From: Saccoglossus kowalevskii
Lineage: Eukaryota; Hemichordata; Enteropneusta; Harrimaniidae
NCBI RefSeq assembly: GCF_000003605.2
Contig: NW_003108610.1
Coordinates: 23,543-48,879 of the forward strand
DNA length: 25,337 bases
Reading direction: 5' to 3'
Part shown: in pieces, positions 6,401-25,337 of the stretch
Layout: the number at the start of each line of letters is the position of its first letter
Position numbering within the stretch: position 1 is the stretch's first letter
The notes under the pieces: generated by a model
Told to the model about the DNA's origin: nothing
Seen by the model: the letters and a program-made list of their open reading frames with translations, nothing else
The model's database searches: none
Position numbers and translations under genes: made by a program

Positions 6401-7350
6401 TTCACTTCCTATTATACACAGCATATTATGAGCCTACAATATACTATAATCACTGCAAAAAATACAATTATATTTGGCTTAGTGGAACCAACCAGAACCG
6501 GATATCGCCACGATTATGGGGATTCAACGTTTTATACTTTCTCGTTTGCTAATGAAAATTCGGCAAAGAGATGTTTGCAGTTATTGACTGTTCATATTAT
6601 GAACAAGTGTTGTAACTTATTACTGGAATCACGTTGTACTTGGGTAATTGTCGTGTTTTCGACGTAAATTTGCTATGTGGTAGAATACATTTTTTTCAGT
6701 AATGGTTTTGTGAGTATATAATTTCCATACGTTTTATTGACGCTATATATATACTACAGTGTTTGGGCATTAGATGAGCTCCATCCGAAACGAGACAAGT
6801 CCATGTTGCCACGTCACCAACCTTTTAGAAATAAAAATAAAGCGTTCGTATCGTAGGCTTTGGCTATTTTATCAGGTTTTCGTCCATAACAGGTACACAT
6901 ATTTTTAGTCTGAGCGCCCGTTCATGAATATATAAAAATATTCATGAGAATTTGGAGTTCCGTTCAATTTGCACTGTTAATAATTTAATCGAAACGTATT
7001 TTGGGCTATAATACAGTTATCACCAACTATAGACCTGTTCATAATAATAATACTGAGTGAATAATTTTTTTCTGCCGTCTTGATAAAATTTACACTTATA
7101 CAATATAAGCAAGGTAATGCATCATCAACCCTTGCAGTCACTGACATAAACACGTGATTACGAAGTGTCATGCTGCAACATCTAGCGATAATGTGAAGTT
7201 CTGAAAGTTCAAGTAGTGAAAGTTAGCATTTGCAATGATCCTTCAGCAAGATCAACTGTGTCTGTTCTTATTTGTTTATCAGAGAATCATAACAAAGGCC
7301 ACAAAGGAGTTCAATCCAATGAAATACCGAGTAATGCTCAATAAATCCTC
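3470..7350. other. AT-rich intergenic stretch without a recognisable gene
   Basis: I see no splice-linked coding pattern, known protein motif or RNA gene. Short open frames such as 5730-5984 (+), 6086-6385 (-) and 6386-6667 (+) have no recognisable domains and the composition of chance frames in AT-rich DNA. Small structures present are a 13-bp tandem duplication at 4842-4867, a poly-T/poly-G run at 4311-4332, and a 10-bp perfect inverted repeat (6922-6931 and 6938-6947, TCATGAATAT) with a 6-base loop. Confidence 0.6.
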
Positions 7351-7358
7351 TATCCATC

Positions 7359-7374
7359 TATATAAGTATATAAG
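7359..7374 (+). promoter_or_regulatory. Candidate TATA box (TATATAAG twice) for the CUB-vWD gene
   Basis: TATATAAG occurs twice in direct succession (7359-7366 and 7367-7374), about 210 bp before the proposed start codon. A start site some 25-30 bp downstream would give a 5' leader of about 190 nt holding a 33-codon upstream reading frame (ATG 7429 to TAA 7530). AT-rich sequence produces such boxes by chance, so this is only a candidate. Confidence 0.35.
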
Positions 7375-7524
7375 TCAGTGAACGCACCCAAAACTATTGT
7401 TGTTTTGTTCTAGTATTGTTGAAGTCAGATGCATAGCATCATCAATCACTCACACTTCTGTCACACGAGCATACTATCCAAGTATACTACTACTACCAGT
7501 ATACATAATAAATTATTGTACTGC

Positions 7525-7543
7525 TACTAACACATCGTTTCAG
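7525..7543 (+). promoter_or_regulatory. Candidate 3' splice site in the 5' leader (branch point plus CAG)
   Basis: TACTAAC at 7525-7531 is a perfect consensus branch point, followed 12 nt later by a pyrimidine-containing stretch ending CAG at 7541-7543. If used, the first coding exon would begin at 7544, with a 41-nt leader piece before ATG 7585 and an upstream non-coding exon. Confidence 0.35.
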
Positions 7544-7584
7544 CTTTTCCATAGATAAATACGTCTCGGAGATCAGAGTCAAAT

Positions 7585-7647
7585 ATGATGCTGTGTTTGA
7601 TGGTAATTATTTCAATGGCCAGCTTCACACTTGCTGTTCCAAAAGAG
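7585..7647 (+). other. Coding exon 1: signal peptide
   Basis: The exon encodes 21 residues: a hydrophobic core (LCLMVIISM) ending in a small-residue cleavage context (TLA), then VPKE. ATG 7585 is chosen because it opens the signal peptide; the next codon is also ATG. The donor is GAG|GTAAGT at 7648, phase 0. Intron 1 is 853 bp. Confidence 0.88.
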
Positions 7648-10600
7648 GTAAGTTTAAATCATTAAACACTAAACTACATGTATTGCTTGGATTACTGAGC
7701 GTTTTAATCTAATACTTGCACTGCAATTATTCTAATATTATTTTGAGGAACTATGATGGAGCATTTTCACTTCTACTCACACTAAAATTGAAATCTGGCT
7801 GGGCCATGTTACACAAATAGAGCTATTGTTGTTGTACCCACATTTTGAATTCAGAATTTAGAGAATCACTTTCGTTGTCTTTGTGTCTAATCATCTTGCT
7901 GCGTATGCGTTTTTAGTGCCATAAATAAATTTGTTACACATAAAATATAAGAAATATATGTTGATATGTTAAATTTAAAATATAGAAAAAAATAATGTCA
8001 GTTTATTCTTCTTTCAAATCTACAAACCTGAACATAGCAGATTTTAAAATAGCAAATTTGAACACAGATCTTTAGTGGCGCTGTCCTGGACACAATGGAC
8101 ACCCCTTGTGTAAGGGATACAATTGTATGGGTCCATAACCCAGTCCGTTGGGCGAGATTACCCTTCGTTACCGATATGACATATGACGGTTCATATAACA
8201 ATAGGCTATATTCAATGTTTCATGCCTACTTGAAATATTGCAGTCGTGTTCTGTTTATTGTTTATTTAAACATTGTTTATTTCAATTCGTCTTTTTTCTA
8301 TTTTGATGTGTTGGCATTAGTTGTCGATATTTTTGCTTCCATTGAGGTACATTGATACATAATTGATTCATAATGAGTTTCTTCATCTAAAGCATCACAA
8401 AAACACTGTTGCACACAAATCAATACAATGTTTACAGCGTATGCCATGTATGTCTTTTATTATTCACTATTACTATATTCTATTATTTTATGTTTTCTAG
8501 AAATTGGTTGTAAAGCGAACAGGTAAGTATAATTCCTAAATATTGAATTGTTCAGCAATGGTTCATATTAATTAACAATAAAAGGATCATCACAAGCTTT
8601 AGTGAATATCTACATTGTTTGATGATATATTTAACATGGCCCCATTGTCACCAATTATCACATTGGAACTCCCTCACAGTTTCATTAAAAAGTTCACATA
8701 ATAGAATTTATTATTTATAATAGAATTAATCAATTTAAAAAAGATTTAAAGACCCATCGCATAAGTAGTTACCTGGCATATCCATTTTTCTTGACTATTA
8801 TTAATATTTTAGTTACTTTATTTTCCTTGTATTATATTTGCTAACGAGGGTATATTTCTTAGTTCCTTGGAAGATTTTGTTTATTGTTCTTTTCCCCTAC
8901 CAATTCATTATTTATATTTTCTATTTTTGTTTGAATAGCTGTTTGATTCGTTTAATTGTTTCATAACAGCTTAAGTAATTATTATATCAACTGGTTACTT
9001 GGTTATTTTTTTTGGATAAATAGTTGTTGATGAATTGTATTACATATATATATATAGTTTTACTTGGTTATTTTTTTTGGATAAATAGTTGTTGATGAAT
9101 TGTATTACATATATATAGTTTTCTAGTACAGATTTAGAAATATAAATAGTTTCTGTCTGTCAATGACCTTTACACATAAGTTAACTAGAATGGCAGGGCT
9201 GTGGACTAGACTAGTTCAGTAGAACTATTTTCACAGACCTCATTTTTTTTACATTTTTTTACTATCTACTTAACTACTTGTATTTTTTGCTGATGAAAAT
9301 AAACATATAATGACTAGTGATATAATGACATGTAATGCACCCCTCAAATGCGACATGTCCTTATAATTGAATAGTGTCCATAACAAATAGTGTTCACTCA
9401 TTCAGAATATAGCTAATCATAATTTCTCATTTATGGATGACCACATATGAAAATGAGCAGCACTTCTATGTACCACGCTGAATATTGGTCACTAGGGGAC
9501 GGTCTTTTATAAAGGATGTAAGAATCTAGCAATGACGATGTATATAATTCATTCACTAATTAAAATATGCATGTTTTTGGACAGGATGTGGTGGGAGCTT
9601 TTACATCAATGAAGGCGAGCAAAAGATAATTACTAGTCCTAATTATCCATCTAATTATGACAATAATCTTAACTGCCCTTGGATTGTCTCAACCAGCCCT
9701 GGAAATACTCTCGATGTGAATGCTGTAGATTTTAATATAGAAAACTTAGTGGATATGTTGATAATCCATGATGGGACTGAAGCTGTTCAATGGACTGGCA
9801 ATTCTCTACCACCAAGCTACACATCAGTTTCCAACGAGTTAATATTCATATTCAGAACTGATTCTATGAATAATTACAAGGGATTTAAGTTAATTATTAC
9901 AGGTAATATAAAAAAGGCAAAATTTACATTTCTTCTTTGTAATTCAAAGAAGTGTCAATTAGCTTGTGTTTCACGATAACTGTAGTCATTTGTAAAGATT
10001 ATGTTATTGACTGACAAAATTATGTGAATAATTAATGATATTTCATTTCACTTGATACTGGACAACACTGAATATAGATAGACAATTATAACGTCGTGAA
10101 ATACGAGTGTCCCTTTTCTGGCATTGATCTATCTGAGCCAAGGGTCACATATCAAGGATATATGTAATTTTTGTTGCATATCCCACTTTTGTGGCTATTT
10201 TAAAAAATTAGACGATCTGACGGTGTAAACTCTGAAAGTATTCGGGCACCACATATGTTGACATTGAATATATGAAATGAATATAACCATAATGTGAAGT
10301 AACACTCGGATGATAACTAGATAAACCATGAAATTTGCTGATTTTACTTGTCTACAGGCCGTGGTGGTTTTAGGTATTTTACTTGTATTTGAAATAGATC
10401 ATGGGAATAGTATATTAGATTATGTTATTTAATGGTAGCTGTTGCTATGTTTTGATTTTTGATTTGAAAATAAGGCATGGAATAGTTTAGACATACCAGA
10501 GATTTGGGAAGATATATATTTCTAGATAGACCATAATACTTGTATGTGACATAGTCCCGTTTTGTATTGACTGATAAAATATTTATTAAGATGAACCATG

Positions 10601-11962
10601 TAATTTCCAAATGTATTATATCATTTGAAGATACACCTTAAAATGTGAAGGCCTTGTTTATATTCATCTACAATTATTTATATTATTTATCATATAGTGT
10701 CAGGCGGAAGTGAGAAAGGAGACCCTCATATGACGACATTTGATGGACGTCGATACAGTTTTCAAGGTCAATGCTGGTATACATTTTTCAAAGACTGCAG
10801 TGCACACCCCGATTTTGAAGTGATTAGTAAGTTCGGGCCAAGAGATGATATCAAGAATAAAACAAGAACGGTTTCTTTCAAAGTTACTGTCGGAGACCAG
10901 TATGTTATTGTTAATGGTCGCGATGTAGCTACAGTAAGTTATATCATATAATTAAGCATTCAATTAGTCTGCTAAATCTGTTTAAACTGTTTAAATAGAA
11001 TAGTGCTGAGAGTATATACGATATTATATATTTCAGGGAAGCAAGAATAATGGTCACGTGTACTCACCTTTCATACATGTACAAGAAAATAATGACCTGA
11101 TTACACTGGCGTTCACTTCCAAATATACAACTTTCACTCTGGAGTGGACACCGAGAAAGCATATGTTAAAAGCATCATTCTCTGGCACTGATTACAATGG
11201 CAAGCTCTGTGGTTTGATGGGTAATGCTGATGGTGATACACGTAATGATCTTCAGACGCCCGATGGTTTTGAAGTAAAGGACGTTACTGCGTTCGGTGAA
11301 AGCTGGAAAGTGAAGGGTGAAGTGTAAGTTTGTTATTTCTTTATTTTCTGCTTCGAAAAGTAGTCATACAGTCACTCATTTAAATAACCGAATCTTAAAA
11401 ACGTGATGTATGGTTATTGTTATTTATACTGTCGTGAATGTATGTTACATATTTTGTGTAATATTTAGACTATTAGGATAAAATTGCGATGGTGATTATA
11501 AGGTGATACTTTTGTACTCAACTCCTCACAATTTACTAAAAATATAATAGTAATGTGTATTTCTGCAAAACTGTGCACATGTGTGTTGATATATTTTTGA
11601 GTTTTTAGTTACAGACAGCCAATTAACTCAAGATAAAACGGTTACTTGAAATGCAGTAAACCGCACTTTTTTTAGAAGTATACACATTGTTATATTTATA
11701 TGCTCAGTAAACAAAATCATGTTTAGTTAAAAACAGGTGAAAAAGCTGTCATTATTTGTATAATATGATGCTCAAATTACAGTGCAAAGAAGAGAGCCTT
11801 GCCTTTTTGTTTTATAGAATTTTTTGTTCAGTTTAAAATCCTGAAGATATTACATATTTGACAATTCTACTTTGAAAATGACCGAGTACAAAAATAAGTT
11901 TAATTTAATTTGCAACATATTTAAAGAAATGTCATTTTTTGTTTCATTACAGGTGTGATTAA
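7585..11962 (+). CDS. Secreted CUB-vWD domain protein, six coding exons, 311 aa
   Basis: Joined exons are 7585-7647, 8501-8522, 9585-9902, 10698-10933, 11037-11323 and 11953-11962. All introns are GT-AG and the frame is continuous to TAA. Residues 1-~17 form a hydrophobic signal peptide (MMLCLMVIISMASFTLA). Residues 22-29 contain the dibasic KR of KLVVKRTG. Residues 30-134 are a CUB domain: it starts CGGSF, has SPNYPSNYDNN and CPWIV, and ends GFKLIITG. Residues ~142-310 are a von Willebrand factor D domain: GDPHMTTFDGRRYSFQGQC, KDC, then CGLMGNADGDTRNDLQTPDG and FGESWKV, with a last Cys one residue before the end. No C8, TIL or EGF module follows. The likely role is a secreted extracellular-matrix, mucosal or ligand-binding protein; the vWD start resembles BMPER/crossveinless-2, but the partner is unknown. 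CUB has only two of the usual four cysteines, and the vWD CGLCG motif reads CGLMG. A second copy of exon 2 lies at 22,560-22,581. Confidence 0.9.
8501..8522 (+). other. Coding exon 2: 22-nt micro-exon with a dibasic site
   Basis: The acceptor is TTTTCTAG and the donor GTAAGTATAA. It encodes KLVVKRT plus the first base of a Gly codon, entering in phase 0 and leaving in phase 1. It links signal peptide and CUB and contributes a Lys-Arg pair that could be a proprotein-convertase site. Its near-identical copy, with flanking intron, is at 22,560-22,581, which supports it being a real exon. Confidence 0.85.
8995..9121. repeat. Tandem duplication (65 and 61 bp) in intron 2
   Basis: The block running from ACTTGGTTATTTTTTTTGG through GTTGTTGATGAATTG to a TA run and AGTTTT occurs twice in a row, at about 8997 and 9062. 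The copies differ by 4 bases in the length of the TA run, so this is a recent duplication plus slippage. Confidence 0.9.
9585..9902 (+). other. Coding exon 3: complete CUB domain on one phase 1-1 exon
   Basis: The acceptor is GGACAG and the donor G|GTAATA. The 318-bp exon holds the whole domain from CGG to the final IITG. Hallmarks are SPNYPSNYDNN, CPWIV, the E...D...HDG run (IENLVDMLIIHDG) and FRTDSMNNYKGF. The Glu and two Asp residues match positions used for calcium in calcium-binding CUB domains. Only the first cysteine pair is present. Confidence 0.9.
10698..10933 (+). other. Coding exon 4: N-terminal half of the vWD domain
   Basis: The acceptor is CATATAG and the donor ACA|GTAAGT. It encodes VSGGSEKGDPHM through NGRDVAT. 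It carries the GDPH box, FDGRRYSFQGQC and the next Cys (KDC). It enters in phase 1 and leaves in phase 0. The following intron is only 103 bp. Confidence 0.9.
11037..11323 (+). other. Coding exon 5: C-terminal half of the vWD domain
   Basis: The acceptor is TTTCAG and the donor GT|GTAAGT (phase 2). It encodes the beta-rich middle (LITLAFTSKYTTFTLEW), the CGLMGNADGD block and FGESWKVKGEV. In most vWD domains the corresponding motif is CGLCG; here the second cysteine (residue 274) is Met. Confidence 0.9.
11953..11962 (+). other. Coding exon 6: last cysteine and stop
   Basis: After the acceptor TTACAG, the first base completes Val. TGT GAT TAA then gives Cys-Asp-stop. The split supplies exactly the terminal vWD cysteine expected a few residues after SWKV, which argues that this short coding end is real. 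The 3' untranslated region follows to about 12,175. Confidence 0.75.
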
Positions 11963-12139
11963 GAGTCTTCTAATAACAAATGCTGGACACAGGTTTAGAT
12001 TTTTCAACGCATGTAATTTGAATTATTATGCTGTTGTAATTTGGCAATTCACAGGTATCGATTTCCGAGAATGCAATGGAACGGTGATAGTGGAATACGG
12101 GTTATATATAATCAAGCTTCAATTTAATGTTCAGCATAA

Positions 12140-12156
12140 AATAAATGGGAAATAAA
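12140..12156 (+). terminator. Two polyadenylation signals (AATAAA) of the CUB-vWD gene
   Basis: AATAAA occurs at 12140-12145 and again at 12151-12156, about 180 bp after the stop codon in the terminal exon. The position suits a short 3' untranslated region. The cleavage site itself cannot be placed by eye. Confidence 0.6.
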
Positions 12157-12179
12157 TGGTGAAAGATTGGAAACCAGTG

Positions 12180-14420
12180 TCGCTTTTTTTGTTACTAAAT
12201 ATGAGAACGGATTTGATAAATGATGCAACAAACACGTTGTATGTAGTATGGGTCTGATATCGACCACGTTATAACTGATAATATTATATTGTATGTACAA
12301 GGTCATGTCGGTATTGACTTCCATCAAATATTCCCATTCGGGGATATATAGTTTACCAACACCAGAAAGCGATCGTAAATTATATAGTGACCACGGGGAA
12401 GGGTGATACTACCCTCATATTACGTGTCAGTGTTCGCTCAGAAAATACTGAAGGAATTGGGAAATGTCTGTAATTATGTAAACTCGAATTCAATACTTAA
12501 TGTCTGTCTGATAATTAAGGGGTGATAAAACACCTGTTCAAAACGTTCGTCATCTACTACACAAGCCCAAAAGATACATTTCTTGACAATCTGGAGTGAA
12601 AACCAGTTATAGATTCCAGATCGGTCGATGACATAATGATGTATGGATAATGACCGTTCTAGCGTAACTGGTATCACGCTTAACTGTACTCTACACTGTG
12701 TACAATTCTCATAAGCGAAGCCATCTTTCTGTTCAATACAGAGTATTGTGTTCGTGTACATAAAATGCGAGAAACAAATGTAAGCAATAACGCTATGTTT
12801 ATATTTAATAGAGCGTCATCATCCCAAACGAATATCATGTTCTTTAAAGTTTTGTATACTACTTGCACAGTGCACAGTCTACTCAATGGATCAAATAACA
12901 CATTCACCCAGAAATTCGGTGGTATTTGTTTAAGTATCTTAATTTTGCCAATAGTCACGATTTAAAAATATTATTTTACCCAGTTTTGCAGATTTTGAAA
13001 TTTATGCCTATTTAAGAGGTTGAGGTTAAGGTTAAGGATGCCCAATGTGTTGGTCATTCTACAAGTATTAGCAAAGTGAACGTCTGAATGAAGAATACTC
13101 GGTTCACAAATAAACAAATTCGGATCAAGATGCCGTCACCCTAATCGCTAGACGGTGTTGAGGGATTATTCTTGCAGCCAGAAATATAATGATTTATGAC
13201 ATATCTCACAACGTTGACTTTGTGAATTTTCTGAGCTCGCCAATATGATTTTGTGTGAATATATGGGGAAAGAAGTGGAATATGATATAAATTACCATGT
13301 GTACGTAGTCATTGACGAAGTCATTAAATTTGAATCTTAAGTGTTTTCTTTTGCCTGAACAGAGTAAACGCAAAGGAAGTATTTGCCAAAATAAACAATA
13401 CTACTTAAATCGTGTTACATATCGGATTGATAAAAAAAAGTGGCGGCCTTTCGATAAAATGTTCAGCTGCATAATCTGAATGTATGAATTAGTGTAAGCT
13501 GAGTGACACTGGCAAAGTGATACTGGTGATTATTTAAGTGCGCCTCGGATACTACATCACTTTTAAGATGTACTGTCACGTGCTATGATCACGTTGGGAA
13601 GACGCAAGTGTAGCTCGACGAGCCCCCAGTCAGATTTAACAAACCCGAGTTACGTTTATACGAGGATTGAACGTACTCATTTATTAAAGTTCATTAGTAT
13701 ATATATATATATATAGTACATCAAACAATAATAAGACATTCAAAAATTAATCGCATGCCAAGAAGAAAATGTACTCTCAAGTGAACACGCGTGTATCGCA
13801 TTCAATATTCATGAAACAAATAATGTCAGTGTGGTCAGTGTGTAAACAAATATTTGATTTTTACATTTGGGGATTAATTAATATAGTACCAACAAGACGG
13901 TTGGAAAGGCTGTAAACTGTCGATTTGTTGTTCACATAAAGAGACCAACATGTGGGACATATGCCCTAAAATGTTTCTAACAATATTTCGTGTGCAAATC
14001 TCGGTTTTGTTAGTCGTTTAGGTATCAGTCAGCAGTATGTCAAAAATCCATATTGTTAAGATAGGTCTTCATAGACATTTCGTCATTCAACATAAACATT
14101 ATAAACATGTTTAATAATTGTATATATAAACAAGTACTTCAAAATAAATTATGTATTATTTTGTGTCATCAACAAAATCGGAGATACACCATTGCCTAAG
14201 CAAATTGTGTTTATCTTTGGACAATTTTATTATCGGTGGTGACATTTTTTATCAATTCAGTGACTATTGTCAATAGCGTATAGGGAATATATTTACAAAT
14301 TGGGCATTCACTTGTATTGTTACTTGAGTAGCCTACAGCTTGCATAAATTTACCTGTAGATATAGCCCCTTTAAGTAGACGCAATTGTATGTCACCTTAA
14401 TTTTTAAGAAGTGTCGTAAA
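12180..14420. other. AT-rich stretch without a recognisable gene
   Basis: No exon-like coding, transposon protein motif or RNA gene was recognised. Overlapping minus-strand frames at 12,474-12,761 and 12,680-12,958 show no known domain. A (TA)n run lies at 13,698-13,715. Confidence 0.6.
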
Positions 14421-14429
14421 TACATTTAA

Positions 14430-16480
14430 AATTTGGCTTAATGTCCGTGGATATACCAAGAATATCTCTCCATACGAAATCAAGTCTACTGTTGTTAGTA
14501 TCAGTGAATTAATTAGAAGATTGTAAATAACTTTGTTTTCAAACTTATGTAAACATTCAAACTTCTCATCATTATCAGAGCTGATATACAGTGTATAATT
14601 GTAGCGAGTGGTGTCAGAAAATGGAGCTCATCTGTTTTTTTCATGAAAGTAGTCCAGAAAGGGCAAGTCCGGGAAGCTAGATAAAATAACAGTGTGTAAT
14701 AGTTCGATTTTGCGCTTAAGTATGCGGGAAGAGTGCATGGTAATTCCAGTTTCCAGTGGTATCTCAAACTCATTATATCAATAATCTGGTTATTCCAGCA
14801 CAGGCGAAGTGATCTGTAGAAAATGGTTCAGAATCATAGAGTTATTATAAATTGGCTCGTTAAAGTATTCATGAATTTTGGAAGGTTTAATAGCTCGCTT
14901 AACTGTAATTGAGCTGAAGGAGGCAAGAAGTTCGTTATAGCGTTGAAGATATTTGATTCTGAATGCTTTAATATTGGATTCAATGTGAATGAACCCGAGA
15001 TAATTTCACGAGCTACCCAGTGTTTACCTTGCCGCATAAAGTTGTTGAATTTGTTGGCAGCGTGTCGATTAAATCTTCGGGGGGCATAGAAATGAGGCGA
15101 TGCCTCAGTTTGGATGCACAAAGCTGGTTGATGACTAGTACCCGACCACGGTATGAAATTGCTTCGCAAACTGACCACAGTAATGTAGTTTACAGAGAGA
15201 GAGAGAGAGAGAAAGAGAGAGTAGCCTTGTCGTATGCCACAATTAAAATTTTAATGAGCCTTACCCAAGGCAATGTATATTGTACTATAATTAATGAAAG
15301 TATTCAAGAGATTCTGGTGATGAACACAAACAAACGTGTTTCCTTGATCAATTGATATTATTGGTAACGGAATGTGTTGTTGTTTCGCGTAACACGTATT
15401 AAAATTGTTAGAAATATTTTTTCCGGAGAACTAACTTTGATCAATATGTATGATTTCGGCGAGCACAGAGCGAAACGGATAGACAATTTTTTGGTAAAAA
15501 TGTTGTAGACGGTGCAAAGTAAAAATACAGAACACCAATTTCTAATTAAATTGTAATTGTTCCATCATAGATTACCAGTTCTAACATGGACTTGTTCACA
15601 CCTTTGTATTGTTCCAGATTGAAAAAGAAGGTAGTTGCTGTGCCACTTTCGTGCAACTGCTTAAATCGTGACCGCACGGTGGCGCCCTGTAACTAGGATT
15701 TAATAAGTTTATTGAGCAAGGATTGGTTGTCAGTAATAAGCGATTGAACGTAATTACGAGTGGCGTCATTATTTCGACAGAATGTTTAGCAACTTTTAGA
15801 TTTTGTGTTCGGGCTTTGCTGTACTGCTGTGAAAGCAATTTATTTGTCAGTTTACCTACGTCACAAGAATTTTGAATGACGCAAACTTACCGTTTTTTAA
15901 ATGCCACTGCCTCCATAAGAGTTCAATGAGATAATTCTGTTCGTGTAATAATTGAGAGTTGAGGCACCATATCGCACTATGTTAGCGGCGATTTTTAGTT
16001 TGACAGGGGAGTGGTCAGAACTAATACCTGTTCCGTTAATAGCGGAAAGTATTTTCGTTGCAAGGTTCTTTGAAATGTAAATACGATCAGAACATCAAAA
16101 CGTGCAGCCTCTGGTTCGGCCTTGGGTTCGGCGCGACTACGTTGGTCACCTCCAAGAATAGTTGTTCCAAATGTATCTAACGATTTCAAGAAGCGTTTAA
16201 ACACTTTGAAGTTTTCTCTTCGTTCATTTGGAATAAAATAAGCTTGGAATTAATGAAATTTCTGATATTGTCATTAATACTGGCTTTGATATGCAATGCG
16301 TAACCGGATATAGTTTGATTGACCTGTAGGATGCTAACACAGCTTTTTTAATTCTATAGCAACTGTACCAGAGTTCAGTTCCAAGTGAGAGAACTGTATT
16401 TCACCCGCCAATTGATATGCCACGTGTGGTCATCTATGTTGGTTGTATGAGTTCCCCGCAAAAACTTAAATGTCAGAAGG
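14430..16480 (-). pseudogene. Decayed Tx1/L1-like LINE ORF2 (endonuclease, linker, partial reverse transcriptase, C-terminal part)
   Basis: Read from high to low coordinates, the remnant follows LINE ORF2 order. Endonuclease: GTHTTNIDDHTWHI (~16,425-16,466), NERRENFKVFKRFLKSLDTF (~16,170-16,230), ILGGD (~16,145-16,159), DRIYISKN (~16,066-16,089) and SSDHSPVKLKI (~15,990-16,022). Linker: GATVRSRFKQLHESG (~15,640-15,685) and TTFFFNLEQY (~15,607-15,636). Reverse transcriptase: IISIDQGNTFV (~15,325-15,360) and NCGIRQG (~15,224-15,244). Distal part: RGRVLVINQLCASKLRHRL (~15,096-15,152), GKHWVARE (~15,004-15,027) and LGFIHIESNIKAFRIKYLQR (~14,938-15,000). Below 14,830 the match is weak. The frame shifts repeatedly. 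The Glu of the endonuclease QETH motif is Gly here, and the RT active-site YxDD block is missing. About 2 kb remains of an expected 3 kb or more. It encoded target-primed reverse transcription and is dead. Confidence 0.82.
15194..15221. repeat. (GA)n microsatellite within the LINE remnant
   Basis: The GA run, read as CT/TC on the minus strand, directly follows the codons for CGIRQG. Leu/Ser codons of the PLSP-type RT motif would be expected there. The catalytic YxDD segment is missing on its far side. Confidence 0.9.
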
Positions 16481-16499
16481 AAGTTCAGTTTTCAAAAAG

Positions 16500-18540
16500 A
16501 AAAAGATTATCTCTTGTCCCTTTATGAAGGTGGAGGTAAATGTAATTTAAACAAATAAAAAAAAATATTTGCTTAGCCATCCCTTTCCAGTGATTTTACT
16601 GGCCCTAACATACACGAAATGGCCCCAGAAAAGTTATGATATACTCATTAATTTAAATGTTCACATAGAGCAGCATTTGCTATTGTACTACCCATTTTAC
16701 AACAAATTGACCGTATCAAAATTGACTTTAACTGTCGCCATAGCTCTTTTATGTCGTCAATACCATACAAATACCAAGTATATTTATTATGTCATTAGAT
16801 TGACACAAGCAGAGCTATTGACCAAAAGCTATGTATTATAGTGATAACGATACCATTTACCTCATTTGTTTGGACCATGCCAGTCACCAGTATGTTTTAA
16901 TGGGTTTTAGCTTCATGCAAATGAACAGAAATGTATTGTGACTGTATACTTAGAGATAATTAACACTGAGTTATTTAACAAGCAAACTTCAAGAGTGAAT
17001 GTTCATAACCATTTATAATTAATTGTATAATGAATATGTACAGTACAGTGACGATATTGTACATAATTTAACTTTTGAAGTTGAATTTATGTTAAGTGTG
17101 TGTGGGGATATAATCAATAGGTTGCACATTGATTAAAGGGCACAATTTTGGAACTAGTTTGTATTTATTTAAAATAGTCTAAAAATAATGTTAGCACCCA
17201 CTAATAATAATAGGCTGAGAATCTCATATTTGACTAAGTTGAGAATTTATTGTATTTACAAATCAATATCATCATGATCATTACCATGAAGTACATTGTA
17301 CAATCTGATTAAATATTTCACAGCTTTCAACGGAATCACCACTATCTGATTTAAGCAACTCTGTATTGAAAATCAATATTATCATAATCATTGTCACGAT
17401 GAATCATCTTATTTCCAATATTACTCACTGTAATAAAATCAGTCCACAATGACACTGCCTTAAGTAATAATATCTGCTTCAACTGATCATTATAGGTATC
17501 TGATTTGGCAGTCATAATTTCAGATTTATTGTAATATTTGCTGTACAACGACCAAATTATAGGTATCTGATTTGGCAGTCATAATTTCAGATTTATTGTA
17601 ATATTTGCTGTACAACGAACAAATGTTCCTTTGTTTTGTAATCACTTTAGGGTCGAAGGCCTTTAATATTTGTGAATAAAGACCATATATAATAATAAAA
17701 AAAAAGATTTGGCAGACATATGTCACTTCACGTGGAACAACGTCAACAAATCAATGCCAGATCTAAACTTTGTCATTTCGGGGTTGGCTCTGAAAAGTTT
17801 CTGTCCGACAAAATCATTGTAATTATTAATGTTAACAATAAATCCCTGTTTTAAATCTAATCTGTTAATTTATAAAGTTTATTTTATTAATTTTATTTAT
17901 ATTTGACACGTGCATAATAAATAAAATGACATCTATTTATTATGATAAAAACATGATTTACATCAATATTATAAAATTAAGGTTTAGTGGTATAGTATGT
18001 AGGAAAAAAAGAATTGTGCCTTTTAACCTACATCAAAACTTTTACGTTGTCCCTAAGTTGCATAGTTGACATAAATACACTCTTAGTTTTAAATAGATAC
18101 AACATACTTTAGTTTTTCATACAATGAAATATTAAATACTGACAGAATCAGAATCCATCCACTATTTGGGTAAGAAAATGTTGCTTCTAAAAATGCACAT
18201 TCAAACATACAATTACCAATACTGTTCCATTAGATATAAATTGAACCTGACTTTTCTTTGATACAGCAAAAAAGTGGTAAATCATTTGTCTCCCCGTTCC
18301 CATTACTCCTCAGAGACAGCCTCGTTTTGCCTTGGGCTAGGATATAACAAAACAATAATAAACACATCAATACAAAAGACTCACTCCACGGATCTACATT
18401 TGTTGTTGTTGCTTGTATTCATTCTAAATACAAGTAAATGTTTATCAAATATTTGCTTACAAAAAAAAGGTTATAGTCCATGTCTTTGAAAAAGAAAAAC
18501 ATGACTATTATACATTACGAACTAAATAATATTGATATCT
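16500..18540. other. AT-rich stretch without a recognisable gene
   Basis: Apart from the duplication at 17,489-17,622, I see only AT-rich sequence and short chance frames. AATCAATAT-ATCAT-ATCATT recurs at about 17,260-17,287 and 17,371-17,397. Confidence 0.6.
17489..17622. repeat. 67-bp tandem duplication, two copies
   Basis: The unit begins ATTATAGGTATCTGATTTGG and ends GTACAACGA-CAA. The two adjacent copies differ at only about one base (CGACC versus CGAAC), so this is a recent duplication. Confidence 0.92.
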
Positions 18541-18604
18541 TTTATTGTATCATCTCAACCACTTTCCATTTAGTGTAGTCTTAAAAAATAGTATACATAT
18601 CAGT

Positions 18605-19090
18605 ATGAAGTATTTTTCGCATTTTTTAGTTTTGTTCTGTTTCAACTTATGTCACTGTTATTATAAAAAATGTTTACTATATATATATATATATATATGG
18701 AATTTGAACATGAACGATCCAGGTATAAAGAAATGTGATCCATGCTTTATGGATCTGATTCCTGGCATGTCCAGAAATGTGGCTCTTATCGTTCCAGGTA
18801 TGTTAAGAGTTGTGTCTATGATCGATCCAGGCATCAAGAGTTTTATGGTTCTGGTCGATCCAGTCATCAAGAGAAGTGACTCTAATGACCCAGGCATGTC
18901 AAGATATGTAGCTATGATCAATCCAGGCATATCCAGAGTTTGGGCTTTGATCGATCCAGGCATGTCAAAACATGTGGCTCTGATCCAACCAGGCACGTCA
19001 AGAGATGTGCTTAGATCAATCCAGTCAACAGTTGTGGCTCTGATCAATCTCGTCAATAAGAGATGTGGCTCTGATCAATCTCGTCAATAA
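18605..19090 (+). CDS. Possible short-lived repetitive ORF: signal-peptide-like start plus 11-residue repeats
   Basis: From ATG 18,605 the frame is open for 161 codons. The first 18 residues (MKYFSHFLVLFCFNLCHC) look like a signal peptide. They are followed by YIYIYIW, encoded by the TA microsatellite, and then by eleven-residue repeats of the form DPGMSRxVALI. The frame closes where 31-bp repeat units enter the array and shift it. No splice sites, codon bias or known domain support it. Because the repeat period is a multiple of three, an open frame is expected to persist by chance, and the minus strand is also open. I lean towards a non-genic minisatellite. Confidence 0.15.
   Translation: MKYFSHFLVLFCFNLCHCYYKKCLLYIYIYIWNLNMNDPGIKKCDPCFMDLIPGMSRNVALIVPGMLRVVSMIDPGIKSFMVLVDPVIKRSDSNDPGMSRYVAMINPGISRVWALIDPGMSKHVALIQPGTSRDVLRSIQSTVVALINLVNKRCGSDQSRQ
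18678..18698. repeat. (TA)n microsatellite
   Basis: A pure TA run of about 21 bases lies immediately upstream of the 33-bp minisatellite. Confidence 0.9.
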
Positions 19091-19352
19091 GAGATGTGGC
19101 TCTGATCAATCTCGTCAACAAGAGATGTGGCTCTGATCAATCCAGGCATATCAAGAGATGTGGCTCTGATCAATGCTGTCAGCAAGAGATGTGGTTCTAA
19201 TCAATCCAGGCATACCAAGAGATGTAGCTCTGATCAATCCAGACTTGTCAACAGATGTTGCTTTGATCGATCCATGCATATCAAAAGTTGTGCCTCTGAT
19301 CAATCCCGTCAACAAGAGATGTGGCTCTGATCAATCCAGGCATTTCAAAAGA
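18713..19352. repeat. 33-bp minisatellite, about 20 diverged units
   Basis: The commonest unit begins ATCAATCCAGGCATATCAAG and ends AGATGTGGCTCTG (33 bp). Variants are 29-39 bp long. In the middle (about 19,033-19,130) there are three near-identical 31-bp units with ATCAATCTCGTCAA. The left half keeps a 33-bp period and is open in frame on both strands; the right half mixes 31- and 33-bp units. The array stops close to where the polymerase remnant begins. Confidence 0.9.
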
Positions 19353-19419
19353 TCAAGGCATGCCAATACCTGTGATGAAGGATGAGTTATCTTGCTTCTG
19401 CCAAGTCAAGACATTCAGT

Positions 19420-19862
19420 TTCCATCACCACTCTGGATGACCAGAAAACGCTTGCTTAATTTTCAGAAACATATTCTCATAGGTTGCCAACTCGTTGTAA
19501 TGCCAAACTTTGTACACCTTGGTGATGCGATACCCCACTTCAGCTTTTTTTCAATTCCAGTCTGCACCCAACACCAATCAGCTGACTTGCATTGACACCG
19601 TTGTGCTTATTCGTGCTCTCCGTGCATTTGGAAAAAGAGTGGGAACAACAATTAATTGTAGGTATATACAATCTTCTCAGAGGCAAATCGTTACACTTGA
19701 TAATACCTAATGTCGGGTGCCCAACTGGATATCTCAAGGTATTATTGATGTATGGATAGATGAACCAGTAGTCAACAAATTCTATCTTGTAACATTCCTT
19801 GATCTCGAAATACAGACACAGGGCATTGATACGATCACCGGAGAAAGACTCCCTAACTCTGG
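19420..19862 (-). pseudogene. Polinton/Maverick-type protein-primed family B DNA polymerase fragment
   Basis: On the minus strand, from high to low coordinates, there are RESFSGDRINALCLYFEIKE, then VDYWFIYPYINNTLRYPVGHP (YPVGHP at about 19,714-19,731), IIKCNDLPLRRLYIP and, after a frame change, GYRITKVYKVWHYNE (~19,496-19,540) and MFLKIKQAFSGHPEW (~19,432-19,476). The order and motifs correspond to the motif A region (D-x2-S-L-Y-P in active enzymes) and the adjoining segment of protein-primed family B polymerases. Those of Polintons typically read YPVGHP, KCxxLPPRxLYxP, YRIxKVYEVWHF and FLKxKQEASGxP. Such elements are large self-synthesising, virus-like DNA transposons. The motif A region is altered, frames are shifted, and exonuclease, motifs B and C, integrase, ATPase and capsid genes are not seen. 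It is a dead fragment of about 440 bp. Confidence 0.75.
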
Positions 19863-19877
19863 TGGGGATTGAGATAC

Positions 19878-20560
19878 TTAAATTTCGCTCTCATTTAATA
19901 CTTTGTGCCGAGATCTAATGGCAGCTCCGCGCGTTTCAGTATGTATCAGGTGTTCGAGTTTTAGTTTTTTCTCGGCGAGTGTTCTGCTCACTGAAGGGTG
20001 TGTTTTGCGTTCGTTTTCCATCCTTTGAACTTCGTCACAAAGTATTCGTTTTCCGTTACGAAAATTATTTGCGATGTATGAGATGTATTGTTTAGTCAGT
20101 TGTTTGATATTAAGTTTTCCATATCCCACCAATGTTGTAACGATTAAAAGCGTGTTTTTGTCTCCGCCAAGTCAATCAATATTCAGTAAAAATATTGCAA
20201 TACTCCTGGTCATCAAGAAGTTTTGTGTTAAACGACCAGGTGGTACTGCGGTGAGAAATATTCTCAAGTGACAATGACACAGTAATGAGTGAGTGATCAG
20301 CAAAATGATAGTTATTATGTATACGGAACTGTTTGATGCGAGATCAATAAGAGAATGGGAGGTAGGCCAAGTAAAACCGCTGCAGTTATTATTAAAGTTA
20401 CGCTAGGCATTGATCAACTTAAATCTCTTAATAATATTTAAAAGTAAAGCTGACGGGAAAGTGTGGTTGGCTCTGTCCATGTTAGGATTGACAGTACAGT
20501 TGAAGTCACCACCTATACAACTAAATCGTTATTCAAGCTATTTAAAGGTGATTTAATTCT
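19878..20560 (-). pseudogene. Second LINE remnant: endonuclease and start of the RT linker only
   Basis: Minus-strand order: IGGDFNCTVNPNMDR (~20,470-20,516), KRFKLINA (~20,405-20,430), GFTW (~20,365), HFADHSLITVSL (~20,272-20,310), WSFNTKLLDDQEY (~20,200-20,242), then an open frame from 20,132 to 19,878 containing LEHLIHTETRGAAIRSRHKV. GGDFN, the Trp-containing GFTW and the ADHS motif are the late motifs of an APE-type LINE endonuclease. The (K/R)GAAIRSR box is the conserved linker before reverse transcriptase in Tx1/L1-like elements. The frame changes at least three times. The reverse transcriptase is absent: sequence similarity stops at about 19,880, where the DNA polymerase fragment begins. 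It is clearly a different copy from the LINE at 14.4-16.5 kb, with different residues at shared motifs. Confidence 0.8.
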
Positions 20561-20715
20561 AACAACAATTTTGTGCGATAGTATTGACATAGGTTTTTAT
20601 TTATAGACCATAAACTGATTCGTATTACAATCCATGTTTCCTGGTTACCCTATGCGAGTAACCATCATGCATGCTGGTTCACAAAAACGTTGTTTTTTAC
20701 CGTATCTTTCAGAGC

Positions 20716-20920
20716 GATGTAGAGAGACGTCCGCGAATGGATGCGAGAGACGTCCGCTGATGAGTGAGAGTGACCTCCGCTGATGGATGAGAGAGACGTC
20801 TGCGGATGAATAAGGAAGGCGGCCGGGCATTTGAGCGTTTTGAGGGAGGGAGGGATGGATGGATGAGAGAGACGTTCGCAGATGAATGAGAGAGACGTCT
20901 GAAGATGAATGAGAAAGACC
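20716..20920. repeat. 24-bp minisatellite, about seven units
   Basis: Units of the form GATGAGAGAGACGTCCGCTG (23-24 bp) repeat with changes. A GC-richer insert (about 20,810-20,865, containing GAGGGAGGGAGGGATGGATG) interrupts them. Read on the minus strand, units give an eight-residue SHPFADVSL-like repeat, open because the period is a multiple of three. Confidence 0.88.
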
Positions 20921-20929
20921 ATAGTCCAA

Positions 20930-21510
20930 AAGTGTTCTCTTGTTCGGACCATCAAATTCTGCTCAAATACATTGTCAAATTTGACAAGACCAGATAATTT
21001 TGTTGCGTGCAGGTTCAAATTCACAAAACAGTTTCACTACCCAATGATTCTATGAATGGTGTATTTAATAGACAATGTCGACGCATTGCTTACTATCAGA
21101 TCGATACTATGGTAGCGGGTGTCAACAGCCTGCTATGGTACTCAGTTTGCGTTACCTATTTACAGTGGCAATTAACACGAACTACCATGGTTAACGTACA
21201 TTAAAATAGAATCAAATTTTCGATATGGAAATCGATTGGAAATAAATGTTTCAAGACTAAGTGTTATCCACACAACCCAACATTGGACTAATTTTATATG
21301 TAAAATACACGTGACTAATTTAATGAGAGTAAATACAGTTTTTTTCTTAGTAAACAAATAAACTATTACACTCCATTTGTCAAGGTTGCTGCTCACAGAA
21401 ATAAAGCATTAAATAATCTAAGTGAAATAGTATGCTTCCTATTTTGAATACAATCAACTCCAATCAAACATACAAGTTTAATTTTTTTTTCAAAATTAAC
21501 ATTTTGCAGT
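20930..21510. other. Intergenic, nothing recognised
   Basis: I see no known coding motif, splice-linked exon or repeat here beyond short chance frames. Confidence 0.5.
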
Positions 21511-21519
21511 TGGCATAGA

Positions 21520-22370
21520 ATTACTACCTCTGAAAGTCGTCAGTGAACATATTAAGTACCTCCGGAAATCACCAGGGCAATCCTGAAAGACACTTGTGCA
21601 CATAGTTAATATCGCTGGAAGTCACAAAGACAACTAATTATTACCCTAAAACAACCATTTAATTAGTTATTCTAGTGCTGAGTATGACCTCTGAAAGTCA
21701 CCTTGGGCCATATTTAATATCCATGTATACCACCAAATATTTAGAATACTGAAACTCGCCATGGCATATAATTAATACCTTTTGACACCATGATCAACAT
21801 TTATAATAATGCAATTCAATTAGAGAGAGTTAAGTTAAAATGGCTTTAAATCCATTTAAATCATCAAACCCTACACCTAATTTACAGATTTGAATTTTTT
21901 GAAGATGCAATCAAATATTAAACTATAATATTAAGAAAATGAGGGCCAACAAAACACATAAACCTAATTTATAGATGTGTAAGAAAAATGCAATATATTA
22001 TTAAACTAAAATATGAGGGTCGTCACTAAAAAGCTTTCATTCATTTTGTGGGGACTGTGGTATAATGAATCTTGTAATCATTACACACGCACCCACACTA
22101 AATTAGTACGTGAATATACACATAGAAATTAATGGGCATAAAAGTAGTACCCCTGTAACCAGGTCATGGAATTAATACCCCTGACATCATGTTACAAAAT
22201 AATGCCCATGTAAGTCACCAGGGCAGACAATTAGTACCATGAATTTAGACAAGGCACATATTTAGTCCCCTTGTAAATCACTTGGGCATATAAGTAACTC
22301 CCGTGGATGTACCCAGAGTACATAATCACTACTTCTGTAAATCCCCAGAAGCTCTTATTAATATCCCTGC
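21520..22370. repeat. Field of strongly diverged ~36-42-bp repeats
   Basis: Blocks resembling AGTACC-(4-8)-GTAAATCACCAGGGCATATA-ATT recur. Examples are at 21,526 (ACCTCTGAAAGTCGTCAG), 21,558 (ACCTCCGGAAATCACCAGGG), 21,688 (ACCTCTGAAAGTCACCTTGG), 22,205 (CCCATGTAAGTCACCAGGGC), 22,267 (CCCTTGTAAATCACTTGGGC) and 22,332 (CTTCTGTAAATCCCCAG). The part at about 21,800-22,130 is not clearly repetitive. This looks like an old tandem array. Confidence 0.6.
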
Positions 22371-22411
22371 ATAACAAACTTATGAGATGCAATCTGATGC
22401 TATATTACACA

Positions 22412-22641
22412 TTGTACATTGATACATGCTCGATTAAGTTCATGTTGAGTTTTTTTTTATCTTACGCATCATACAAACCAAATCAACACACTGTTTACGA
22501 CGTATGCCATGTATGCCTATTATTATTCACCATTACTATATTATATTATTTATGTTTTCTAGAAATTGGTTAAAAGGCGAACAGGTAAGTATAATTACTA
22601 AATATTGAATAGTTCAGCAATGTTTGATTCAAAGAACAATA
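22412..22641 (+). other. Duplicated copy of the exon 2 region, with intact 22-nt exon at 22,560-22,581
   Basis: This segment matches 8344-8582. Shared blocks are GTACATTGATACAT, CGTATGCCATGTATG, ATGTTTTCTAGAAATTGGTT, GGTAAGTATAATT and TAAATATTGAAT-GTTCAGCAATG. The exon copy keeps TTTTCTAG in front, GTAAGTATAA behind, the same 22-nt length and the same phases. Three bases differ within it, all changing amino acids: it encodes KLVKRRT-G instead of KLVVKRT-G. No matching exon 1 or CUB exon was recognised between 12 kb and the right edge. It could belong to a tandem paralogue continuing beyond the window, be an alternative exon, or be a leftover of a partial duplication. Confidence 0.8.
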
Positions 22642-22704
22642 ATGACTGCATGACGGTTGTGAAGTTATGCTGTCAAGGTTTGAGACAATGGCACTATAAT
22701 ATGA

Positions 22705-22826
22705 GATTATGAGAATACCATAAAGTATGCACAAAGACAGTACAGCGGGAGTGTCGACCGACGCGCAGGAGAGATCGATGCGACGGCGTACTTGTCTGAA
22801 TGCATACTTTACGGTATCTCGTAATA
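22705..22826. repeat. Imperfect inverted repeat, ~26-bp arms with ~70-nt GC-richer centre
   Basis: The left arm (22,706-22,731, ending CATAAAGTATGCA) pairs with the right arm (22,801-22,825, starting TGCATACTTTACGG) with two mismatches and one indel. A further shorter pairing inside (AGACAGTAC near 22,735 with GTACTTGTCT near 22,788) extends the stem. The centre contains GTCGACCGACGCGC and is GC-richer than its surroundings. It may be a fold-back or MITE-like element or an RNA hairpin. Confidence 0.7.
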
Positions 22827-22829
22827 ACC

Positions 22830-23115
22830 TTAATACCGAAATACAAAAAAAAGTTTAGAACAGTATCAGCGAACTTCTTTGTGTGGAGTCTGGTCTAACC
22901 CATGTTTATTTGTTTTGTTTATGCGCGTAAGCATTTCATATTGTGAATTCGCATTTCCTAATATAGTAGGATAAAAATTACGGCACGCTGTAACTTATGG
23001 CGTTACGGTGACAGATGTATGATAATGTAACATATTGACGGATATTTTTCAAAGTTTAACATAATCACTAAATATAGAAAGGATTAATGGCTTCAGTGTG
23101 TTGTACCAGATGAGG
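22830..23115. other. Short intergenic stretch, nothing recognised
   Basis: I see no coding motif, splice-linked exon or repeat here. Confidence 0.5.
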
Positions 23116-23600
23116 GATTTAACTCTAAAGAAGATGTGCCTTGGTCCACATTGTCAACATTGTAATTCATGAAAATGCTTTGCATCAAACTGGACTTCTT
23201 CTTTTGTGATGATATAGCTTTCTCCAAACATATGCATGTCTTCCATAGTTTTCCAATGTAAATCCGTTGGTTTCTTCTGCTTAGCCTCTCTGCTGCTGTC
23301 CTTGCTTTCCCTGTAGACTCATTTCTGGGTTATTTGTAGGTACAGTCAGAGGTGAACGCTCTATCGTGGGTGGAATTAATTTGCAACTTATGTCATTGTC
23401 ACTTTCTTCAGCGTCTGTTCAGTCTTTCCAATTTGGCAATAAATAGTTATTCTTAAGGCCGTAGTTAGTGACCTGAGTACAAGCCATAGTGATGATAAAC
23501 TCACATGGAACACTGTTGAATACGAGCCCAAGAAACCGGCCAGCTTTCAAATCAGCAACCTCTTTGACTGATTTCTAGACATTTGGGGTACACAACACAT
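23115..23600 (-). pseudogene. Unidentified coding-like remnant
   Basis: On the minus strand, one frame from about 23,575 reads VKEVADLKAGRFLGLVFNSV, then CEFIITMACTQVTNYGLKNN, then LLPNWKD before a stop (about 23,426). After the stop the same frame continues with TDAEESDNDISCKLIPP. In another frame, from about 23,305 down to 23,152, it reads SSREAKQKKPTDLHWKTMED then HMFGESYIITKEEVQFDAKH and FHELQC. Residue composition and the near-continuous reading with few stops suggest a broken protein gene or transposon ORF. I do not recognise the family. Confidence 0.3.
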
Positions 23601-23619
23601 CGCATTTTCAGATATATGT

Positions 23620-25230
23620 TTGTGTAGTGAGTGTAAAATGGTAAAATTCTACCATTGATTGTGGGCTGTTATCAGTTTATATAATATGAAAATAATTAAA
23701 TATATTATTATATATCTTGTGTACAAAACATAATTCATTTTAATGGTATTACCCAGGTGGCTTGTGACCCTCATTATGGTCTCAAACCAATTACTGCATT
23801 GCTCGTGATGACAACTGACCCTTAACATTAGGCAGTATGTTTCGGATACTATTTTGCCTTCTCCTGAATCCAGTTTATTGAAATATTTTTTTCTGAGTGG
23901 ATTTTTTAGTTCACTTCGTCATATATATTTTTTTTAAAGAATGCCATGTTGTTACAGTCAGCATCTGTCAAAGTCTAACATAATTGTACACTCTTGATAA
24001 CCACAAGCAGTTAATGAGCATCCAGGTAAAACCACAATGAATTGTTTGCCTCATCCCATTGCTGGTAGGCATGCAATTCATAGCTGAATTGACCATGCAC
24101 AGACATTTTGTAACGCTACTGGAAGTGCACACTCACATCGCGGCAATTATTTCCTGTATCACGCCTGACCGCAATTGAAGTATTCGGAGGTGAAATTGTC
24201 ATTCATTTGGTAGTTTATTTCCTGTGATAATCAGTTGTTTGTAGCAACTACTGGAATGATTAAGACATGTGATATCTTGTCTTGTCGTTACCATTATAAG
24301 TTATACCAGTGTTACATCACATGCATGTCAAATATATACCAATAGTACACTCATTCAGGAATGACAATAGCAATCCTCGGTATTTATTTACTATGCTATT
24401 ACAGTACGCTTTATAATGATTATTATATGTAGAAACACGACATATAATGACAATGACGTAATCAAAGTCAGTCTGAAAAGTAAACAGTCAACGGCCACGA
24501 TCCAAATCTGAAATAGATTGAAATGACATGTTATATCTGGCGTGTTAGACTCTCAAACGATTATAGTTTGTAATTGTAATTCATTTTCATTTACCGAAAG
24601 TATATTTAACAGCCATTTGATTATAGAATAATTTGTACATTATAATGTTCTTTTTTTGTGTCAACATATAATTAAAAGCTGATTGATAAATTGTAACTGT
24701 TAAACCATCTAAATTAATGAGGTAAACGTATTCTATTTTTATTCTAGAGTGAACTCCATTTTTCAAATAATATTAATGTTTTTTTCACTGCGAGACTCAG
24801 CCTTATGCTTGACATTCAACGCGTCGTGTCAAAAAGGCTATTTAAATGCATATTTCCTCGCTGTACACAATATAAAAAATGAAATTTGATGTAGTACTGT
24901 TGTCTTTACGTTTTACTTTTATAGCTGGGCATTCGGACATTGACAATCAAAAATATCCAAGTTCTGAATCATATAATTCGGATTTGGAGGAAAATACACG
25001 GATTTCATGCAAACATCGCATACTGTATATATTGTTTGTTTGTGTACGTTCGGTATAATTTCTTTATTATATTCTCTATTATTTATTTACCAAGAATACA
25101 AAGTATTAGTGACTTACGATATTGTTGTTATCCCATGAGCCGTACTGCTTTGATAGCTCGACAATCCAGCCGCCATATTGAGAGTTATTGCGCCACCTAC
25201 ATCAGTTATCCTGCCGTCGTGTATTGCAGC
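23620..25230. other. AT-rich stretch without a recognisable gene
   Basis: No CUB, vWD or transposon motif was found. The frame at 24,940-25,257 (+) has no recognisable domain. The candidate acceptor at 24,924 (TTTTATAG) is not followed by a CUB-like reading. Confidence 0.55.
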
Positions 25231-25238
25231 TTTGCATA

Positions 25239-25337
25239 CACACGAATCCTGAGATGAACAGAAACAATGGAGAGGATGTAGTGGATTACTGTTCTATATG
25301 CACACGAATACTGAGATGAACAGATACAATAGAGAGG
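25239..25337. repeat. 62-bp-period tandem repeat, cut by the right edge
   Basis: CACACGAATCCTGAGATGAA (25,239) and CACACGAATACTGAGATGAA (25,301) begin two copies. They continue in parallel through CAGA-ACAAT-GAGAGG to the last base of the window. Further units may follow outside. Confidence 0.85.

Follow-up and report, generated by a model that had tools for sequence, protein, structure and literature searches.

A micro-exon of a Saccoglossus kowalevskii CUB-VWD gene recurs 14 kb downstream in a short duplicated block that is probably an unused fragment

Results and Discussion

The window analyzed here is a 25,337-base stretch of Saccoglossus kowalevskii DNA, bases 23543 to 48879 of the 48,879-base contig C313, in a genome assembly of 572 Mb and 4,830 contigs. 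The 23,542 bases of C313 to the left of the window read N, while the right end of the window (25337) is also the end of the contig, where the sequence runs into short tandem repeats. The window encodes a CUB-VWD gene of six exons on the forward strand (7585 to 11962). Based on the gene model and Pfam, its 311 residues comprise a signal-peptide-like start, the peptide KLVVKRTG, a CUB domain, and a VWD domain, in that order; the gene would encode a secreted product. Exon 1 (7585 to 7647) carries the ATG, the signal-peptide-like stretch, and the residues AVPKE and ends at a phase 0 donor; exon 2 (8501 to 8522) is a micro-exon of 22 nt encoding KLVVKRT(G), entered in phase 0 and left in phase 1, and a paralogue described below has a 22-nt exon of like form. 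The CUB domain is encoded by exon 3 (9585 to 9902; Pfam CUB, 9.1e-17), the first part of the VWD domain by exon 4 (10698 to 10933; Pfam VWD, 8e-23), and the second part by exon 5 (11037 to 11323; gene model and Pfam), followed by the last codons, EVCD, and the stop in exon 6 (11953 to 11962), where a related gene on contig C1847 also aligns. CUB and VWD occur in separate proteins in the available portion of PMC4890752. The window yielded 0 matches to known RNA families at gathering score. It also contains two-unit tandem duplications of 65 and 67 bp, perfect or near-perfect, at 8995 to 9117 and 17489 to 17624, and a minisatellite of 33-bp units (18.6 copies) at 18760 to 19353.

We compared the region around exon 2 with the rest of the window and the genome. 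A source block comprising the tail of intron 1, exon 2, and the start of intron 2 (8347 to 8581, forward strand) has a duplicate in the same orientation about 14 kb downstream (22414 to 22642), delimited by a genome DNA search, alignment, and 20-base bins. This recurrence had been reported in an earlier note on this DNA, whose block coordinates were right to within 1 or 2 bases but whose exon coordinates (22560 to 22581) were three bases too low; the copied exon lies at 22563 to 22584. The two blocks are 79.8% identical with gaps over 242 columns (E = 9e-57), which rules out chance similarity, and in a MAFFT alignment 193 of 222 aligned bases are identical and 29 differ (13% substituted; K80 distance, 0.144). 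Identity in 20-base bins is 70 to 100% within the block (74 to 100% in its outermost bins) and 25 to 45% just outside it on both sides, and the homology is thus confined to a short block with sharp edges, as in a partial duplication. A whole-genome DNA search with 22412 to 22641 returned two matches, the query itself and the gene's own copy, both on C313; a dispersed repeat would have more than two copies, and within the reach of this search a repeat family carrying the exon is thereby rejected.

The copied micro-exon, encoding KLVKRRT(G), is intact in form, as the earlier note had also observed. Its length, its phases (0 in, 1 out), and both splice sites (ttttctag before the exon, gtaagtat after it) are kept, and its three differences from exon 2 all change amino acids: two bases turn a GTA codon into AAA and one turns AAG into AGG, converting KLVVKRTG to KLVKRRTG (VVKR to VKRR) while a basic pair stays at the same place.

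No gene was found around the copy. When the gene region (6500 to 12200) was compared with 12201 to 25337, the block was the sole blastn hit (E up to 0.01), tblastx added no match with an E value below 0.2, and by tblastn the gene's protein reached E = 3.1 at best in 12201 to 25337. Introns 1 and 2 measure 853 and 1062 bp in the window gene and about 600 and 1572 bp in a second CUB-VWD gene on contig C696, and therefore partner exons would be expected close to the copy. Upstream, a scan for signal-peptide exons with a phase 0 GTRRG donor found 0 in 12001 to 22562, the 10.5 kb before the copied exon; a stricter form of the scan recovers the real exon 1. The same scan relaxed to any GTR donor gave four candidates on the forward strand (two of which share one ATG) versus six on the reverse strand, and the forward candidates are therefore not above background. 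Downstream, no CUB exon was recognized in 22585 to 25337, the 2,753 bases (2.75 kb) between the copied exon and the end of C313, although the two intron 2 lengths would place such an exon inside this interval. Phase-1 acceptors at 23447, 24895, and 24925 each lead into 40 or more open codons; none of these three stretches is CUB-like by eye, and tblastn with the gene's protein gave no match to them. Degenerate repeats of about 25 to 30 bp occupy 21511 to 22311, directly upstream of the copied block.

The earlier note had read the kept splice sites as a sign of a live exon, and this argument fails on three counts. First, the exon and its flanks have diverged equally (3/22 versus 26/200 bases; Fisher p = 1, a comparison of low power), such that the coding part displays no preferential conservation. 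Second, the four core AG/GT bases would survive 13% divergence in a dead copy with a probability of 0.57, counting substitutions alone. Third, 15% of simulated dead copies kept AG/GT and acquired no indel in 36 bp, and 13% also kept the frame open; among runs with three exon hits, all three were amino acid changes in 34%. On the other side, substitutions are sparser in the 43 bases next to the splice sites than in the remaining flanks (2/43 versus 24/157, p = 0.076), a weak signal that constraint acting on the parental copy could also explain by itself. The micro-exon of the C696 gene polarizes two of the three exon changes, leaving the third unclear; both arose in the copy, which fits relaxation of the copy alone. 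The intact copied exon gives no evidence of selection, though with numbers this small it may be under weak constraint.

The CUB-VWD gene on C696 (locus L036, C696:18500-28400, minus strand) has the same layout as the window gene: a signal-peptide-like exon 1, MKMRLLVIISLVSLTLAAPKDV, is followed by a 22-nt exon at C696:23717-23738, AAATCAATTGGGAAGAGGTCAG, which encodes KSIGKRS in phases 0 and 1, then by a CUB exon (Pfam, 2e-17) and a first VWD exon (Pfam, 1.5e-13), with all exon borders set by eye. No second VWD exon was seen before the stretch ends in N. Its CUB domain is 38% identical to that of the window gene and, unlike the duplicated block, it is a separate gene rather than a block copy. 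Among 37 of 42 loci (the five gene loci on C313 were set aside, and three of the 37 are all N), this micro-exon form appeared in C696 alone, and the CUB loci on C4668 and C1551 contain no phase-1 exon of 18 to 30 nt with a basic pair; the micro-exon is therefore documented for two genes rather than as a general feature of CUB genes. A K...KR micro-exon is common to these two distant CUB-VWD genes, and in both the position of the basic pair, just before CUB, suggests a short propeptide cut after KR. The shared micro-exon, with its bearing on this probable propeptide, is a small side result.

We next considered whether the copy could belong to a whole-gene duplicate. A genome protein search gave 134 matches with E up to 0.001 (127 of 482 candidates scored), with many VWD relatives. 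Among the candidates scored, identity outside the window gene peaked at 74%, in a short stretch of C4611; C1847 had the lowest E value (second VWD exon, 69% identical); and CUB gave no near paralogue, its best other match being 44% identical (C4668). Had the whole gene been copied along with a block still 87% alike in its introns, the CUB and VWD exons should well exceed these identities. For a VWD tree, 22 relatives were drawn from the 30 best-scoring loci plus C696, and 18 were kept after dropping four that cover fewer than 120 residues, including C696. In the resulting 19-sequence tree, C1847 is sister to the window gene (support, 0.805). The DNA of the two genes is 77 to 78% identical in coding exons and 66% in the last exon plus 3′ part, with a dS of 0.58, a dN of 0.19, and introns that are 43 to 49% different. 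This closest relative therefore does not match the block in divergence (dS of 0.58 versus K80 of 0.144). The C1847 gene (L038, C1847:240000-241716) is truncated: its contig ends 371 bp upstream of the first VWD exon, so that the gene lacks its 5′ part at the end that might adjoin C313. In a neighboring clade of the tree, the genes on C4340 (L037) and C4611 (L039) have FN3 before VWD (Pfam, 3.9e-8 and 4.5e-9) and no CUB match in the upstream stretches examined. Across this genome the VWD unit thus follows N-terminal domains of more than one kind, and C1847 may have no micro-exon at all.

These relatives bear on the strongest rival explanation, raised in the earlier note as a tandem paralogue starting within the window. 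In the form considered here, the copy would be exon 2 of a second gene that continues past the end of C313 onto a reversed C1847, which would supply its VWD exons, with exon 1 and the CUB exon unrecognized or in the gap. We consider this possible but unlikely. C1847 is the closest VWD relative, and its orientation and its truncation at a contig end are compatible with this arrangement, which keeps the proposal alive, and C696 demonstrates that another CUB-VWD gene with such a micro-exon exists. However, no partner exon was found up to the contig end, whether a GTRRG-donor exon 1 in the 10.5 kb upstream or a CUB exon in the 2.75 kb downstream, and the tree neighbors C4340 and C4611 carry FN3 and no CUB in the stretches examined. 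Furthermore, the split from C1847 is much older than the block, its gene divergence far exceeding the block's 13%, and gene conversion homogenizing the exon 2 region would therefore be required. The explanation survives because the assembly ends here. Its functional form, in which a second, tandem CUB-VWD gene running on into C1847 makes use of the copied exon, with conversion keeping exon 2 alike and the site changed from KR to KRR, is marginally less likely still.

A misassembled right end of C313, with a haplotype or a distant paralogous locus attached, is improbable. The copy does lie less than 2.8 kb from the end of the contig, which closes with short tandem repeats, but no second contig carries the block, and divergence of 13% is high for alleles. 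The sequence beyond the block is dominated in searches by a dispersed-repeat core of about 330 bp with many genome copies (22695 to 23026), which starts 52 bp after the copied block and has an inner inverted repeat (22715 to 22739 and 22793 to 22817). A genome search with 22643 to 25337 gave 53 matches including itself, and the other 52 all fall within 22685 to 23053; only 40 of 3,400 first-look candidates were scored and these were crowded by the repeat, so other kinds of match may be missing. The lack of a scored match elsewhere to 23054 to 25337 consequently argues only weakly against misassembly.

The earlier note's other suggestion, that the CUB-VWD gene uses the copy as an alternative exon 2, drew on the shared phase and splice sites and on the difference at a basic cleavage-like site but is extremely improbable, because the copy (22563) does not lie between the exons to be joined (exon 1, 7585 to 7647; exon 3, 9585) but about 13 kb after exon 3 and 10.6 kb after the stop codon (11962), which excludes ordinary cis-splicing and would require trans-splicing or back-splicing.

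We therefore favor the reading that the duplicated block is an isolated, unused leftover of a small duplication, an orphan exon probably without effect. A segment of about 235 bp, running from the last part of intron 1 through exon 2 into the first part of intron 2, would have been copied in the same orientation about 14 kb downstream, past the end of the gene, perhaps by a template-switch type event or another small dispersed duplication. The copy would then have diverged by about 0.14 substitutions per site, any constraint of its own being undetectable, and the copied exon would go unused; on this reading, the usable look of its splice sites reflects the youth of the copy, which has not had time to lose them, and not their use.

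As a fragment, the duplicated block is ordinary. Mutually exclusive duplicated exons of the Dscam and SNAP25 type lie side by side between shared flanking exons. Like the copy described here, they are duplicates of equal length and phase with amino acid changes, but they adjoin between those shared flanking exons, whereas this copy does not. Another parallel is provided by unannotated tandem exon duplications, for which PMC9013439 reports 4,027 targets in the introns of human genes, away from annotated exons and repeats. There, as here, an exon was copied nearby and left unannotated; those copies lie in introns, whereas this one lies beyond the end of the gene and is known from sequence alone. 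The copied exon shows that 22 bases flanked by good splice sites may pass for a working exon well after their duplication, and it thus serves as a caution that splice sites alone are poor ground for calling exons.

Near the end of the contig, a small open frame without a Pfam match (24879 to 25055; MKFDVVLLSLRFTFIAGHSDIDNQKYPSSESYN...) has the look of a signal-peptide start and could be either a product of chance or the opening exon of a further gene truncated where C313 ends.
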